Positions 29,051-34,080 of a stretch of 53,223 nucleotides of DNA are shown piece after piece (the first letter of the stretch is position 1; every line of letters begins with the position of its first letter). The DNA is taken from contig CACWPM010000033.1 in the NCBI GenBank assembly GCA_902762795.1, forward strand, positions 1 through 53,223, read 5' to 3'. A model generated the notes under the pieces. That model worked only from the letters and a program-made list of their open reading frames with translations. It was not told where the DNA came from and searched no databases. This DNA is from Fibrobacter succinogenes. Its GTDB lineage: Bacteria; Fibrobacterota; Fibrobacteria; Fibrobacterales; Fibrobacteraceae. Position numbers and translations under genes: made by a program.

Positions 29051-30463
29051 CTACGCCCTTTTTCTATTGGCTGGGAATCGAGCGTAGAATTTTTTCTTGT
29101 CTTCGTACATGCGAACATCGGCTTCGTGCATGGCGGTGCGGATATCGCCTCCGCTTTCGTCATAATAGAAACCTATTGCGAAACTTACATTGCCAGGAAT
29201 CATTGATTTATCATGCAATTTTTTGATTTTGGCTTCGAGAGCGTCCTTGGGTTCATCTATGATGATGACGAGGAACTCGTCGCCACCGGCTCGATAGACT
29301 TCGCCTTCGTCAAAGGCGTCTCTTAATACAAGCGAAGCTTCTTTCAACAAATTATCGCCAGCATCGTGACCCTGGTTATCGTTCACCGGTTTTAATCCGT
29401 TCAAGTCGGCAAATACGACTGCAAGGGACTTGTGTGGAACGGAACCGTTTACAAACTGCGAAACCCTGTTGTTCATGGAATTGCGGTTTTGAACGCCCGT
29501 CAAGAGATCCATGTTGCTGAGCTGTTCCAGCTTACCCAAAAGCAGGAAGTTGGAAATTTCCGAGGCGATAAAGAAAGACGATAATTCTAGTGTTTCTTTT
29601 ATATGTATCGTATTCGTCGTATTGAAATTCGTAACCCAGATAAAGCCCAAAAACAGGTTGTTGTATTCCAAGGGCAATAGTACTAGGCTATCTACGTTGG
29701 CTCCAGTCAGTGAATCGAACCAATGCGAATCTTGCTGCCTGATGAGGTCAAAATCTTCTTTGTTCCTGAGCATGAGGCAGTTGGTTTTAGCTATGATTTT
29801 TAGCCAAGTCCTTGCATAGTCGATAAAATCGTCTGTCAAAAATTCACGGAGAGAACGCTGGTTTGAACCTTCCTTGACGGAATCGCTGAATACGGAGCAC
29901 TTGTGCTCGTTAAAGTCGGTCAGCAAAATGCAGCAGTAGCTTGCCCCGCAAATTTCACGGATGTCTTCGATGACGTCGTCCATGGCCTTTTGCAAATTTT
30001 TTGCACTGCGAAGCTTGACGCATGTCTTCAATATATTCGACGATGTTTCTGCCGAAAGCTTGGACATCTCCTCGGGAGAGACTTCTTGAGCCATTTCAGG
30101 GGTGTATGTGCAATAAGCTTTTTGGGGATCGTCGCTGTCCAAAGGCAGCATGAATTGGTTGATGCAAAAATCGAAACGTTCCGGACGGATGTAAGCGTGA
30201 ATGGGTTTTTTGTTTATCGCGCATTCGTAGCAAAAGTTCTCGAAGTTCAGTTCCTTTTGCATGTAGTTTTCGTATCGGCTACCAGGAACAAACTTTCGTG
30301 AAAGAATGGTTTCTCCAACGTCAATAGTTTCCATGGACTGGATATACCGTGGATTTGCCGCTTCGATGCAAATTTTGCCAATTTTTCCATCGGCTTTTTT
30401 TTCGACCGAGAGAATGCATGTCATCGTTTCAAATGAATCAACAATTTTTTGTAAGTCCATCAT
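29051..30463 (-). CDS. Diguanylate cyclase (GGDEF) with N-terminal sensor region, copy 2
   Basis: 470 residues. The C-terminal GGDEF domain (about 310-470) is complete: LLTGVQNRN, VVFADLNGLKPVND, GHDAGDNLL and YRAGGDEFLVI with GGDEF near residue 393. It should make cyclic di-GMP. The RxxD inhibitory site expected nine residues before GGDEF is replaced (Phe and Gly instead of Arg and Asp). The first ~130 residues include FEHF/FENFCYEC-type motifs with Cys, and about 145-300 look GAF-like. It starts directly after the stop of its paralogue (TAA-ATG), so they are co-transcribed. No membrane segment was seen, so it is cytoplasmic. Confidence 0.92.
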   Translation of the reverse strand: MMDLQKIVDSFETMTCILSVEKKADGKIGKICIEAANPRYIQSMETIDVGETILSRKFVPGSRYENYMQKELNFENFCYECAINKKPIHAYIRPERFDFCINQFMLPLDSDDPQKAYCTYTPEMAQEVSPEEMSKLSAETSSNILKTCVKLRSAKNLQKAMDDVIEDIREICGASYCCILLTDFNEHKCSVFSDSVKEGSNQRSLREFLTDDFIDYARTWLKIIAKTNCLMLRNKEDFDLIRQQDSHWFDSLTGANVDSLVLLPLEYNNLFLGFIWVTNFNTTNTIHIKETLELSSFFIASEISNFLLLGKLEQLSNMDLLTGVQNRNSMNNRVSQFVNGSVPHKSLAVVFADLNGLKPVNDNQGHDAGDNLLKEASLVLRDAFDEGEVYRAGGDEFLVIIIDEPKDALEAKIKKLHDKSMIPGNVSFAIGFYYDESGGDIRTAMHEADVRMYEDKKKFYARFPANRKRA

Positions 30464-31867
30464 TTAACGCTTCCTGCATTCGGGGTGTAACTCGTAGTAT
30501 AATTTTTTGTCTTCGTACATGCGGGAATCTGCTTCGCGCATGGCGGCTCGGATGTCGCCGCCATTTTCTTCGAAATAGAAACCAAGAGCAAAACTGACGG
30601 GAGTTGGATCGTCCGCTTTCCTGCGTAATGCTTCGATTTGCGTTTCGATTTCTTCTTTGGTTTTGCCCATGGAGATAATCAAGAATTCGTCTCCTCCGGC
30701 GCGATAAATTTCACTGCCTTCAAAGCATGTCTTTAGCGCAGCGGCTGCGTTCTTCAAGAGTGTGTCGCCTGCGTTATGACCGTCGTCGTCGTTAATCGTC
30801 TTTAGACCGTTCAAGTCTGCAAAGACGATTCCGTAATTGTCAGGCACTCTTTCGCGACCGGACACAATCTTCAACACGCGGTTGTTCATGGCGTTACGGT
30901 TTTTTACACCGGTCAGGAGGTCCGTGGAACTCAACATTTCTAGCTTCTGTAAAAGCTGGTAGTTTGCAATTTCCGAAGCGATAAAGAATGTTGTCAGTTC
31001 AAGAGTTTCTTTGATGTGAAGTGTTTCTTTTGTATCAAAGTTTGTTGCCCAGATAAAGCCTATGTTTTCGTTGTTATATTGGAGCGGGAAAAGGACAAGG
31101 CTGTTGATTTTGGCTTCCTGCATGGATGCGTGCCAACGCGGGTTGCGAAGCTTCACTTCATCCATGTCCTTTTTATCCTTGATGATGAGGCAGTTGCTGC
31201 CGGCAATCGTATCTGTCCAGGACTTCACGAGGTCCACGAACGAATCGTTCAAAAAGTCCATTAAGGAGTGATGACCGATGTCGGGAGCGGTGCTTTCGCT
31301 GAGTAGCGAACAAGTGTTAGCCTTGAAATCCGTAAGCATGATGCAGCAGAAATGTGCTCCGCAGATGGTACGGATATCTGCGATGACTTCGTCCATTGTC
31401 TTGAGAAAGTTTTTCGTGCCGCGGAGTTTAATACAAGTTTTCAACACATCCGAAGTTGTTTTGGCTGAAAGCTTGCTCATTTCATCGGCATTGGCTTCGG
31501 TCGACAGTTCCTGCGTATAGGTACAGTAACATTTGTTGGGGTCGCCAAAGTCCAGTGGCAGGCTAAAAATGTTGAACCACACATCGAATCGCTCGGGGTG
31601 GATGTAGGCATGCATCGGCTTTTTAAGGACGGCACTGTTATAAATAAAGTGCTCAAAATTCAAGTCCTTGGTCACGTAACGGGTGTATTCCTGACCGGGG
31701 ATGAACTTGTTGCCCATGTTGATAACATCGTTTTGCTCAAAAGTTGAAGTATATGCCTTGTTACCGACTTCTATGCGCATCGTTCCATAAGTTCCGTCGG
31801 GATTTTTCTCGATGGACATGATGCAGGTCATTGAATCGAACTGATCAACATATTCCTGTAAATCCAT
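30464..31867 (-). CDS. Diguanylate cyclase (GGDEF) with N-terminal sensor region, copy 1
   Basis: 467 residues, collinear over its full length with the next gene: the two share the MDLQ start, PERFD, YCTYT, EEMSKLSA/DEMSKLSA, HIKETLEL and the whole GGDEF domain. The active-site YRAGGDEFLII lies near 387-397. As in copy 2, the RxxD product-inhibition site is absent. The N-terminal region (about 1-130) is unlike known sensor domains I can name; 145-300 is GAF-like. AAGGAG lies shortly before the ATG. The tandem arrangement suggests a recent duplication followed by divergence in ligand sensing or in dimer pairing. Confidence 0.92.
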   Translation of the reverse strand: MDLQEYVDQFDSMTCIMSIEKNPDGTYGTMRIEVGNKAYTSTFEQNDVINMGNKFIPGQEYTRYVTKDLNFEHFIYNSAVLKKPMHAYIHPERFDVWFNIFSLPLDFGDPNKCYCTYTQELSTEANADEMSKLSAKTTSDVLKTCIKLRGTKNFLKTMDEVIADIRTICGAHFCCIMLTDFKANTCSLLSESTAPDIGHHSLMDFLNDSFVDLVKSWTDTIAGSNCLIIKDKKDMDEVKLRNPRWHASMQEAKINSLVLFPLQYNNENIGFIWATNFDTKETLHIKETLELTTFFIASEIANYQLLQKLEMLSSTDLLTGVKNRNAMNNRVLKIVSGRERVPDNYGIVFADLNGLKTINDDDGHNAGDTLLKNAAAALKTCFEGSEIYRAGGDEFLIISMGKTKEEIETQIEALRRKADDPTPVSFALGFYFEENGGDIRAAMREADSRMYEDKKLYYELHPECRKR

Positions 31868-32023
31868 ATATACTCCTTCATTGGCTTTTTTCGCAAAAGC
31901 ATAAGCCTTTGTAAAAATAATATGAAACGAACGGACCGTGTGAATTGAAATACCTTTTTTTTATAATTTTGCGTAAAAAGGGGTGATTTCCCTCACTATT
32001 TTAGAGTTTTTTTAGCCTTGCCT

Positions 32024-32440
32024 ATGATTTACGATACGTTTTTTGACCCGATTCGCAAAAAAGAGGTTCCTGCGACTCCCGAGGAGCATGTTCGTCAGGC
32101 TACGGTCCGTTACCTGCTGGACGTGGTGAAGGTGCCGGAACATCTGGTTGCGGTGGAGTTCCCGCTCGCATCGGTTGATTCGAATACGCAGGATCGGGTG
32201 GATATCGTGGTGCATAATTTTCGTGCGGGGGCGCCTTTGAACAAGCCGTGGCTCTTGGTGGAATGTAAAGCTCCGGGGGAATATACGTGGCCGGTCTTGC
32301 AGCAGCAGTTGAACAAGTATTTGAGGGTCTTGACGCCGAATTATGTAATGCTTGCTCTTGGGGATGCGGTACGCTATTTCGAGTTGGATGCGGAGACACG
32401 CCGGTTTAAGAAAATTGATAGCCTGCCGGTGTTTGGCTAA
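32024..32440 (+). CDS. Stand-alone HsdR N-terminal-like nuclease domain protein
   Basis: 138 residues from ATG 32024 (a TTG six bases earlier is in frame). It matches the type I restriction R-subunit N-terminal domain (HSDR_N_2): FDPIRKKEVPATPEEHVRQ, then the PD-(D/E)xK core DRVDIVVHN and PWLLVECKAP with the Glu-Cys-Lys triad, then QLNKYLRVLTPNYVMLALGD. Only this domain is present; no helicase, HsdM or HsdS is nearby. Such short proteins are common in the FCB group and their role is unknown. It is followed by the inverted-repeat array at 32495-32715. No clear ribosome site. Confidence 0.88.
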   Translation: MIYDTFFDPIRKKEVPATPEEHVRQATVRYLLDVVKVPEHLVAVEFPLASVDSNTQDRVDIVVHNFRAGAPLNKPWLLVECKAPGEYTWPVLQQQLNKYLRVLTPNYVMLALGDAVRYFELDAETRRFKKIDSLPVFG

Positions 32441-32494
32441 GTGCTGCTGCTGAATGCGGAATTTCAGTGTTTGAGGAGTGCTTTTTTGTGAAAA

Positions 32495-32715
32495 TGTGCT
32501 ACTAAACTTTCAAAAAATGCATTTTTGGTAACACAATTTTTATGTAAATTAACTCATTTTGAACGAAAAAATGTTTTTGAGGGGTGTTTTGTGTTACCAA
32601 AATGAAATAAATGTCAAGTTTGGTAGCATGACTTCGCTACATGTAAATGAAAATATGACGTATAAAGTAAAAAATATGCTACCAGATTTAGAAAAAATTG
32701 CTATTTGGTAGCATA
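32495..32715. repeat. Array of three 12-17-12 inverted repeats
   Basis: Six copies of a 12-base motif close to TTTGGTAGCATA occur in strictly alternating orientation: 32495-32506 (-), 32524-32535 (+), 32590-32601 (-), 32619-32630 (+), 32675-32686 (-) and 32704-32715 (+). Within each pair the gap is exactly 17 bases, but the gap sequences differ. Pair spacing is 95 then 85 bases. The third pair is perfect over ten bases per arm (TATGCTACCA/TGGTAGCATA). ATGTAAAT also recurs after the first two pairs. The region lies between two convergent gene ends and has no open frame of note. Confidence 0.85.
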
Positions 32716-32781
32716 AAATCGTAAAAATGCCCCGAGATTGTACTTGAATAGTGTTTGGTTAGATCGAAATTGCGCGAACCG

Positions 32782-34080
32782 CTATTTCACTACTGACAGA
32801 ACTTCCCCGTCGGCGAGGCGTGTCTTGATGGTGTCGCCGCTCTTGAGTTGGCTTGCCTTGCGGATGAATTTTCCGTTTTCGTCTAGCGTGAGCGAGTAGC
32901 CCTTGGCAAGAGTCGTCTTGGGGTCTGCGTTTTTGACTTTCTCGTTTACAAGCTCGAACTGCGATTTTGCAAGGTCGAGAATTTTGCGGGAACCTTGCTT
33001 TAAACCTTCGCGGTTGCGGTCGAGGCGTTCGTGTTCGGACTTTATGTAAAAAGCGGTGTCTTTTTTGATCGAGGCGGCAATGAGCACGTGCTTGGATTTT
33101 TCGTTCTGGATGAGTCCGAAAACTTTTTGCTGGAACTGGTTTCCTATCGTGCCGAGTTGCTTGTTGTTTTCGGTGAGGAGGTCGCGGGCGCCATCGGCAA
33201 TGCTTGCCATCGCTTCAGTCATTCGGTTCCAGCTGTCCGTGACGCGTTCCACGAGACGCTTCGCGCAGTCCGTGGGCGTGATGCACGAGAGGTAAGCGAC
33301 TTCGTCCAAAAGGCAGCGGTCGATTTCGTGACCGATTCCCGTAAAGACGGGGGTGGGGTAGTTCGCGACCGCGCGGCAAAGTGCTTCGCTATCGAAAAAG
33401 TTCAAGTCCGTCTTGGCGCCGCCACCGCGTACAATGCAGACAACATCTAAATTGGGGTCGCCTTGGAGCTCTTCCAGCGCTGCGATGATGCTTCCTTCTG
33501 TTTCGTTCCCTTGCATCCGCGCATAGACCGTCGTGACTTCGAATGCGAACGGAGACGCTTCAAGTCGCGTGGTGAAATCCTTGTACGCGGCCGTATTTTC
33601 GCCGGTAATGAGCCCCACGCGGAGCGGAACGTCGGCAAGTTCTAGCTGCTTGTTCTTTTCGAGCAGGCCTTCCATCGCAAGGCGCTTCAAGATGGCGCTT
33701 TTGGTGAGTGCGAGTTCGCCAATCGTGTAAACCGGATCGATGTCCAAGATTTGCGCTTGCAACTTTCCATACGGGATGTACAGTTCCGCGCGTACGAGAA
33801 AGTTGACCTTCAAGTCGTGCTTGAGCGTAAATGGCTGCGAAAGGCTGGAAATTTTTGCAAGAATCGCATCGTATTTGGCTGTGTAGCAATAAAGGGCAAG
33901 CGTTGCTTTCGGTTTCACGTCGCCATCGGCGAAGTCTGCAATGCTCAGGTAAACGCCCGACGGCTTTTCCGCAATTTGCGAAATCACCCCATGCACCCAA
34001 ACCGCAGGTGTTGCCTCCACGGTGTTCTTGAGCGAACGCATGTACTGCGTGACCGAAAATGTGCGAACTTCTTGATCCAT
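32782..34080 (-). CDS. xseA: Exodeoxyribonuclease VII large subunit
   Basis: 432 residues. With the small subunit XseB it degrades single-stranded DNA in both directions. An N-terminal OB fold (about 5-105) is followed by the catalytic region: VGLITGENTAAYKDF, VVCIVRGGGAKTDLNFFDSEAL, PVFTGIGHEID and SCITPTDCAKRLVE. These contain the conserved Asp, Arg, His and Asp residues of the family. A long coiled coil follows and the end DPKTTLAKGYSLTLDENGK is typical. The family's usual T-(S/T)-P-T-AA stretch reads ITPTDCAK here. xseB is not adjacent. Confidence 0.95.
   Translation of the reverse strand: MDQEVRTFSVTQYMRSLKNTVEATPAVWVHGVISQIAEKPSGVYLSIADFADGDVKPKATLALYCYTAKYDAILAKISSLSQPFTLKHDLKVNFLVRAELYIPYGKLQAQILDIDPVYTIGELALTKSAILKRLAMEGLLEKNKQLELADVPLRVGLITGENTAAYKDFTTRLEASPFAFEVTTVYARMQGNETEGSIIAALEELQGDPNLDVVCIVRGGGAKTDLNFFDSEALCRAVANYPTPVFTGIGHEIDRCLLDEVAYLSCITPTDCAKRLVERVTDSWNRMTEAMASIADGARDLLTENNKQLGTIGNQFQQKVFGLIQNEKSKHVLIAASIKKDTAFYIKSEHERLDRNREGLKQGSRKILDLAKSQFELVNEKVKNADPKTTLAKGYSLTLDENGKFIRKASQLKSGDTIKTRLADGEVLSVVK

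Follow-up and report, generated by a model that had tools for sequence, protein, structure and literature searches.

A phased array of gapped palindromes in Fibrobacter succinogenes, probably a dispersed copy of the recognition array of a nuclease-like DNA-binding protein

The window analysed here, a stretch of 53,223 nucleotides of Fibrobacter succinogenes DNA (assembly GCA_902762795.1, contig CACWPM010000033.1, positions 1 to 53,223), carries an array of inverted repeats between an HSDR_N_2 open reading frame and xseA (32782-34080, minus strand), which raises the question of what the array is and which molecule recognizes it. All six half-sites described in a previous, sequence-only reading of this DNA were found in the window, where they form three gapped palindromes (modules) of the form TGNTACCAAA-N17-TTTGGTANCA, with starts 95 and 85 bp apart. 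The alternating 12-17-12 pairs which that reading had placed at 32495-32715 are correct once two flanking bases are added to the 10-bp arms. Its 85-95 bases between pairs hold as numbers, but they are start-to-start distances, the intervening DNA measuring 58 and 48 bp with 10-bp arms. The features of the locus are as follows.

32018-32440, plus strand: HSDR_N_2 open reading frame of 140 aa (Pfam PF13588, E 2.5e-17), not the partner of the array
32488-32496, plus strand: left outer end, GTGAAAATG (family consensus TGCGAAAAn)
32497-32533, plus strand: module 1, TGCTACTAAA-N17-TTTGGTAACA, one arm base differing from the consensus
32542-32552, plus strand: linker-1 box, ATGTAAATTAA, following module 1 (family consensus RAYAAATTAA, from column conservation in 30 in-register arrays)
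32592-32628, plus strand: module 2, TGTTACCAAA-N17-TTTGGTAGCA, 95 bp (nine DNA turns) past module 1
32662-32670, plus strand: linker-2 box, ATAAAGTAA, directly ahead of module 3 (family consensus AYAAAGTAA, from column conservation)
32677-32713, plus strand: module 3, TGCTACCAGA-N17-TTTGGTAGCA, one arm base differing from the consensus, 85 bp (eight turns) past module 2
32714-32733, plus strand: right outer end, TAAAATCGTAAAAATGCCCC, mirroring the left end (consensus TCGCAAAAATnGCCC)

Two adjoining open reading frames of a single GGDEF-domain family (470 and 467 aa, minus strand, 29051-31867 of the window) lie beside the array locus both here and in genome G069.

The array was shown to belong to a family. 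With up to three mismatches allowed, 52 matches to TGNTACCAAA-N17-TTTGGTANCA were obtained in the window's own genome (Fibrobacter, F. succinogenes group), compared with two for a reversed-pattern control, which excludes a chance origin of the window palindromes. Approximately 19 array places were located in this genome, all of them intergenic and of the same architecture, with nearly all triplets spaced at 95/85. Similarly, nearly all of 43 arrays from five genomes consist of three modules with start spacings within about one base of 95 and 85 (in one array, L058, the middle module is not recognizable), and the inequality of the two spacings gives the array a direction. The central A-run of the spacer lies on the strand set by this direction (39:4, 39:4 and 32:10), and spacer positions 9 and 10 hold neither C nor G in any of 124 modules, although position 10 is C in a few later modules from other arm families; the inner sequence is thus not unconserved, as had been claimed. 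The outer ends of the array family are mirror images of each other, TGCGAAAA and TTTTCGCA, and constitute terminal inverted repeats.

Other arm families share this organization, including TGCTACTAAA-N16 and TTACATACTA-N20, the latter also carrying the linker-2 box between its palindromes, while a core TACYAAA-N16/17-TTTRGTA occurs with GGG-, GGT-, ACC- and TCA- prefixes. The spacings in other arm families take values of 53, 63/64, 74, 84-86, 94-96, 105-107, 127, 134-136, 179/180 and 210 bp. Across 73 non-redundant arrays, 131 module spacings peak at multiples of 10.4-10.5 bp (R 0.92; for unique values R 0.78, p ~1e-6). Because the spacings are whole multiples of this period, the modules would lie on one face of the helix, with changes in spacing occurring by whole turns. 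A shortened array was observed at L023 (G005:C1:803238), where the usual end of module 3 comes immediately after modules 1 and 2; recombination between modules would be expected to give such an arrangement.

With respect to distribution, 55 stretches were obtained from 84,980 scanned species genomes, those outside Fibrobacter being isolated single modules. No arrays were found in 200 kb each of G144 (another genus of the family) and G077 (a distant Fibrobacter), and among viral sequences only three and one lone matches were obtained, none with a second module. The pattern TACYAAA-N16/17-TTTRGTA was matched eight times in genome G150, from another genus of the family, and never in the control, and on these sequence matches the arrays may reach beyond the genus Fibrobacter. 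Of the two outcomes that the sequence-only reading had named as speaking against it, absence of the paired motif from other genomes is not what was observed, the motif being widespread across the genus, whereas arm changes that lack compensation were indeed observed and refute its RNA version only.

This RNA version, in which the array is a structured RNA with three hairpins or a set of bidirectional terminators, draws on the palindromes themselves and on the convergent gene ends at the window locus. Among 116 distinct modules, however, approximately 60 one-sided changes at fixed arm positions were counted against a single two-sided change, which is non-matching; the variable third arm base is weakly matched between arms (54 of 116 versus 41 expected). 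A conserved hairpin is excluded because the arm changes are one-sided and uncompensated. An Rfam search at E 1 returned no match for the array, the spacings follow the DNA helix at 10.5 bp, and the convergent setting, correctly described for the window, is not the rule: a hand count in this genome gave about five convergent, five divergent and nine tandem contexts. The probability of an RNA or terminator function is therefore regarded as negligible. A role as terminator or operator of the neighbouring genes was likewise rejected, since the contexts are mixed and the flanking genes unrelated. Judged by the uncompensated arms, the A/T-only spacer centre and the 10.5-bp phasing, the arrays are putative protein sites on double-stranded DNA, in agreement with the previous suggestion of a constrained array of candidate binding sites, for which no named counterpart was found.

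To what extent the arrays are maintained is indicated by 15 array pairs of the window's genome (G000) and G069, treated as orthologous and found via their arms, which introduces some bias though up to four mismatches per module were allowed: fixed arm positions were 2.1% divergent, compared with 16.3% for linkers and 14.9% for spacers outside the centre. In the same pairs, the variable arm base diverged by 32%, the boxes by 7.3%, the outer ends by 8.3% and the flanks by 21%. By this measure, the arms of the dispersed arrays are evidently under selection in place. Furthermore, orthologous loci may carry different arms. At one locus, G000, G069 and G058 possess CCAAA/N17 arms, whereas G071, G047, G046, G005 and G072 possess CTAAA/N16-type arms in all three modules. 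Several more loci differ in arm type between genomes, including the FAD locus, where spacers of type A show visible homology to those of type B. By these comparisons, the arms of an array have switched jointly in place.

Copying of the array is also apparent. Some array pairs within one genome are 75-81% alike inside with flanks at background, which suggests that a unit of approximately 260-280 bp has also been copied. Neither a target-site duplication at array ends nor a clean insertion or empty-site junction was found. Genomes G001, G043 and G067 lack both array and gene at the first arm-switch locus, with a junction at a short shared AAAATC that reads as a deletion.

The HSDR_N_2 gene adjacent to the window array was considered as its partner and rejected: in most relatives it adjoins xseA, separated by a short spacer without an array. 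The idea that the array travels with this gene therefore fails, the xseA-HSDR_N order being kept in relatives that lack the array. Palindromes of the TTACATACTA family occupy the HSDR_N_2/xseA site in G055, G018 (a genome with 8% contamination) and G023. Another repeat, AGATCCTTCGACTTCGTGCTGCGCACTCCGCTCAGGATGACA, was observed in the xseA-HSDR_N spacer, downstream of xseA, in G047, G008, G043, G071 and G046 (L081 and L084-L087), and has the appearance of a further dispersed element in the group. In the window's own genome, apart from lineage duplicates, the abundant Fib_succ_major group alone recurs beside arrays. The broader proposal that a nuclease-domain protein is involved holds in spirit but not for the adjacent gene, as the candidate partner belongs to a different family and is encoded on another contig of the same genome (G000:C13:10222-11034, locus L066), where it is preceded by an array with the window's arms.

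Using this 271-aa protein (L066:10222-11034) as query, relatives were identified in 50 of 80 genus genomes, with up to eight per genome. The association of this gene family with arrays is near-universal: at least two palindromic modules with the same arms were present within 650 bp upstream of 75 of 90 members, at least three modules in 51 of 90, and an array was found beside 82 of the 90 when downstream arrays were included. No two-module hit arose among 450 dinucleotide-shuffled controls, and the upstream regions of 926 ordinary open reading frames gave 0-1.3% (6/464 in G047, 0/230 in G077 and 1/232 in G144), three of the six G047 hits being at least partly genuine arrays, which that genome carries. 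The median distance from array to open reading frame is 161 bp, and 134 spacings in gene-linked arrays were again phased at 10.5 bp (R 0.91; unique values p ~7e-11). Arrays with the same arms flank the gene on both sides at L316, L323, L372 and L378; at L372, the spacings run 63, then 74 in both, an order that long direct repeats would also show. The family was present in 40 of 44 core-positive genomes and in 10 of 36 core-negative ones (p 5e-9, kinship ignored).

Arms were shown to be specific to paralogues. This single gene family adjoins arrays whose arm type varies from species to species, and at least 26 distinct arm sequences (arm clusters) are in use among its paralogues. A second dispersed arm type, GTACCTATA, occurs at L059:4965 and L059:17080 (G000:C4) and at L043:13646 and L057:884 (G069), and an array of this type is also present at a resident second family member in the window's genome (L336). 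The dispersed arms ranked 1-4 of 45 against gene-linked arms of their own genome in 12 of 19 genomes. Dispersed arms in G030, G011, G039, G023 and G028 were unmatched to the fetched gene arms, perhaps because the cognate gene lies outside the fetched set or has been lost, and arrays are kept without an intact cognate gene in G043, G067, G075 and G053 (72% complete). No close viral relatives of the partner protein were found; a human-gut contig labelled as phage (MT839528.1) encodes a full-length, distant relative with 35% identity (L381:3201-3794) without an upstream array.

Pfam and NCBIfam searches with the partner protein gave no credible match and no HUH/Y1 domain, and a sequence search of the PDB gave none. 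A structure model based on 62 sequences (mean pLDDT 95.4) comprises a helix (residues 12-35), three strands (41-47, 50-57 and 60-63), a second helix (69-103) and a PD-(D/E)XK-like domain from approximately residue 160 (nuclease fold 164-270). In this model, the N-terminal part is predicted to be a helical hairpin with a three-stranded beta tip. Foldseek comparison of the model with the PDB yielded no hit below E 0.001. Structural comparison of the nuclease part gave as neighbours Bax1 and the EDxHD homing endonuclease I-Bth0305I (both Z 8.0; PDB 3r3p for I-Bth0305I, rmsd 3.0 over 92 residues), TnsA (7.5), VRR_NUC (6.7) and Vsr (6.4); such middling values support, at the level of modelled structure, placement in the PD-(D/E)XK/Vsr-like superfamily but not closer kinship. 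Residues E166, D198, E213 and H214 do not vary among 62 members, a catalytic role being inferred for E166, D198 and H214. All 62 members scanned matched the PADLOC candidate PDC-S68 (best E 7.2e-30) through the C-terminal nuclease domain only, the match covering the last 120 residues against a 1221-position profile and thus not the full length.

Arm and protein sequences covary. Mantel correlations between arm and protein similarity, computed without phylogenetic correction, amounted to 0.50 for the N-terminal half and 0.39 for the C-terminal half, with the strongest segment (0.48) at residues 31-60, corresponding to the beta-tip region. Conditioning on the C-terminus left a partial correlation of 0.32 for residues 36-68, and the reverse gave 0.20, both likewise uncorrected for phylogeny.

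Collectively, the window array is probably a dispersed copy of the recognition array of the nuclease-like DNA binder encoded at G000:C13:10222-11034, which would bind as dimers and assemble into a phased complex. Each palindromic module would be bound by one dimer, with the A/T centre covered by the C-terminal PD-(D/E)XK/Vsr-like domains and both helical hairpins reaching outward, such that the beta tips read ten-base arms approximately 27 bp apart. The homing endonuclease I-Bth0305I, which binds a target of just under 60 bp as a dimer with an extended DNA-binding region (PMC3943268), provides a precedent for such a geometry. Three or four dimers on one helix face would form a single nucleoprotein complex that regulates the gene of the protein itself and also sits on the dispersed arrays; its position beside the gene suggests autoregulation, and its occupancy of remote arrays would account for the arms kept there. 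More speculatively, protein and array may constitute a self-propagating pair, cleavage and spreading by the nuclease being hypothetical, and the dispersed arrays may be solitary copies, either copied or left behind after gene loss, comparable to RAYTs and REPINs. Since the dispersed arms are constrained, these arrays are unlikely to be dead copies, and the solitary-copy idea would have to explain why each site is selected. The wider version, in which genus-wide self-propagating protein-array pairs read DNA through the beta tip, have their own arm code per paralogue, seed and maintain solitary arrays, and co-change arms and protein in place, is advanced tentatively and is somewhat less probable than its negation.

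Several other explanations were weighed against this reading. The arrays could be chromosome-organizing or regulatory sites of the host, bound by a separate, unlinked host factor family, with the nuclease genes merely among those regulated. Selection of the arms in place, persistence of arrays at orthologous intergenic sites despite changed arms, and their occurrence in convergent, divergent and tandem contexts beside unrelated housekeeping genes would all fit such a role; yet the arms differ between paralogues in one genome and covary with the protein, and no neighbour besides the abundant Fib_succ_major group recurs in the way that the partner genes, 82 of 90 with an array, do. Host sites of this kind are accordingly considered unlikely. 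Somewhat less likely again is a phage-defence or anti-plasmid device, in which chromosomal arrays would keep the nuclease bound until an invader releases or activates it. The patchy, fast-diversifying and multi-copy nature of the family, together with the PDC-S68 match in every scanned member, is in keeping with defence, but that match is confined to the nuclease domain of far larger proteins, defence genes do not recur beside arrays in the sample from the window's genome, and the arrays are placed among core genes.

If the arrays were passive, MITE-like elements mobilized by an unrelated transposase, and the nuclease genes bystanders, the copied ~260-280-bp unit with background flanks and the mirrored outer ends would be explained. 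Against this, no target-site duplication was seen, the linkers drift but arms, boxes and ends stay conserved in place, helical phase is kept through many spacing changes, and the tie to one gene family is strong, making this explanation improbable. The reading of the window array as a recognition array of the nuclease-like protein is thus preferred.

The closest known parallel is the RAYT-REP/REPIN system, in which a protein gene is flanked by palindromes with many dispersed intergenic copies and paralogues have different cognate sequences. RAYTs belong to the HUH-type (Y1) transposases, and their substrates are single-stranded hairpins. Here, too, the dispersed palindromes match those beside a resident protein gene; however, the nuclease domain of the protein is PD-(D/E)XK/Vsr-like rather than HUH/Y1, hairpin arm pairing is not conserved, and the gapped palindromes are arranged as three to four modules in DNA helical phase. 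Compared with I-Bth0305I, whose nuclease fold resembles the modelled one, the partner gene is not located in an intron, its cognate site is intact beside the gene and elsewhere rather than destroyed by insertion of the gene, and the sites form arrays of three to four. PDC-S68 shares the C-terminal nuclease domain family, but the PADLOC proteins are ~1200 aa long, whereas the partner, of ~270 aa, has a different N-terminus and a cognate array. MITEs resemble the arrays as short non-coding units with mirror-image ends and dispersed copies, although the internal modules of the arrays are fixed and selected in place and no target-site duplication was seen at the array ends. Looping operators, such as LacI O1-O3, are palindromic sites whole DNA turns apart, a spacing principle shared by the arrays, which by contrast occur at ~19 places beside unrelated genes and often between gene ends.

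We are aware of no named element that is laid out in this way. Open-licence papers on Fibrobacter repeats and phased sites contained nothing relevant, and palindromes are not mentioned in the main text of the S85 genome paper; neither the array nor the partner protein appears to have been described previously. The pair, whose function is predicted, resembles RAYT-REPIN in organization but differs from it in the class of protein, the nature of the site and the phasing.

If this reading is correct, a DNA-recognition family without a Pfam or NCBIfam model, with at least 26 natural specificities each written beside its own gene, would provide a ready protein-DNA code, and the in-place switches of arms across all modules would constitute a natural record of protein and site changing together. 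The system would also represent a convergent counterpart of RAYT-REPIN, built from a nuclease and double-stranded DNA arrays. The host is a major rumen cellulose degrader with largely unannotated intergenic DNA, and the persistence of dispersed bacterial palindromes would become testable in a cultivable group.
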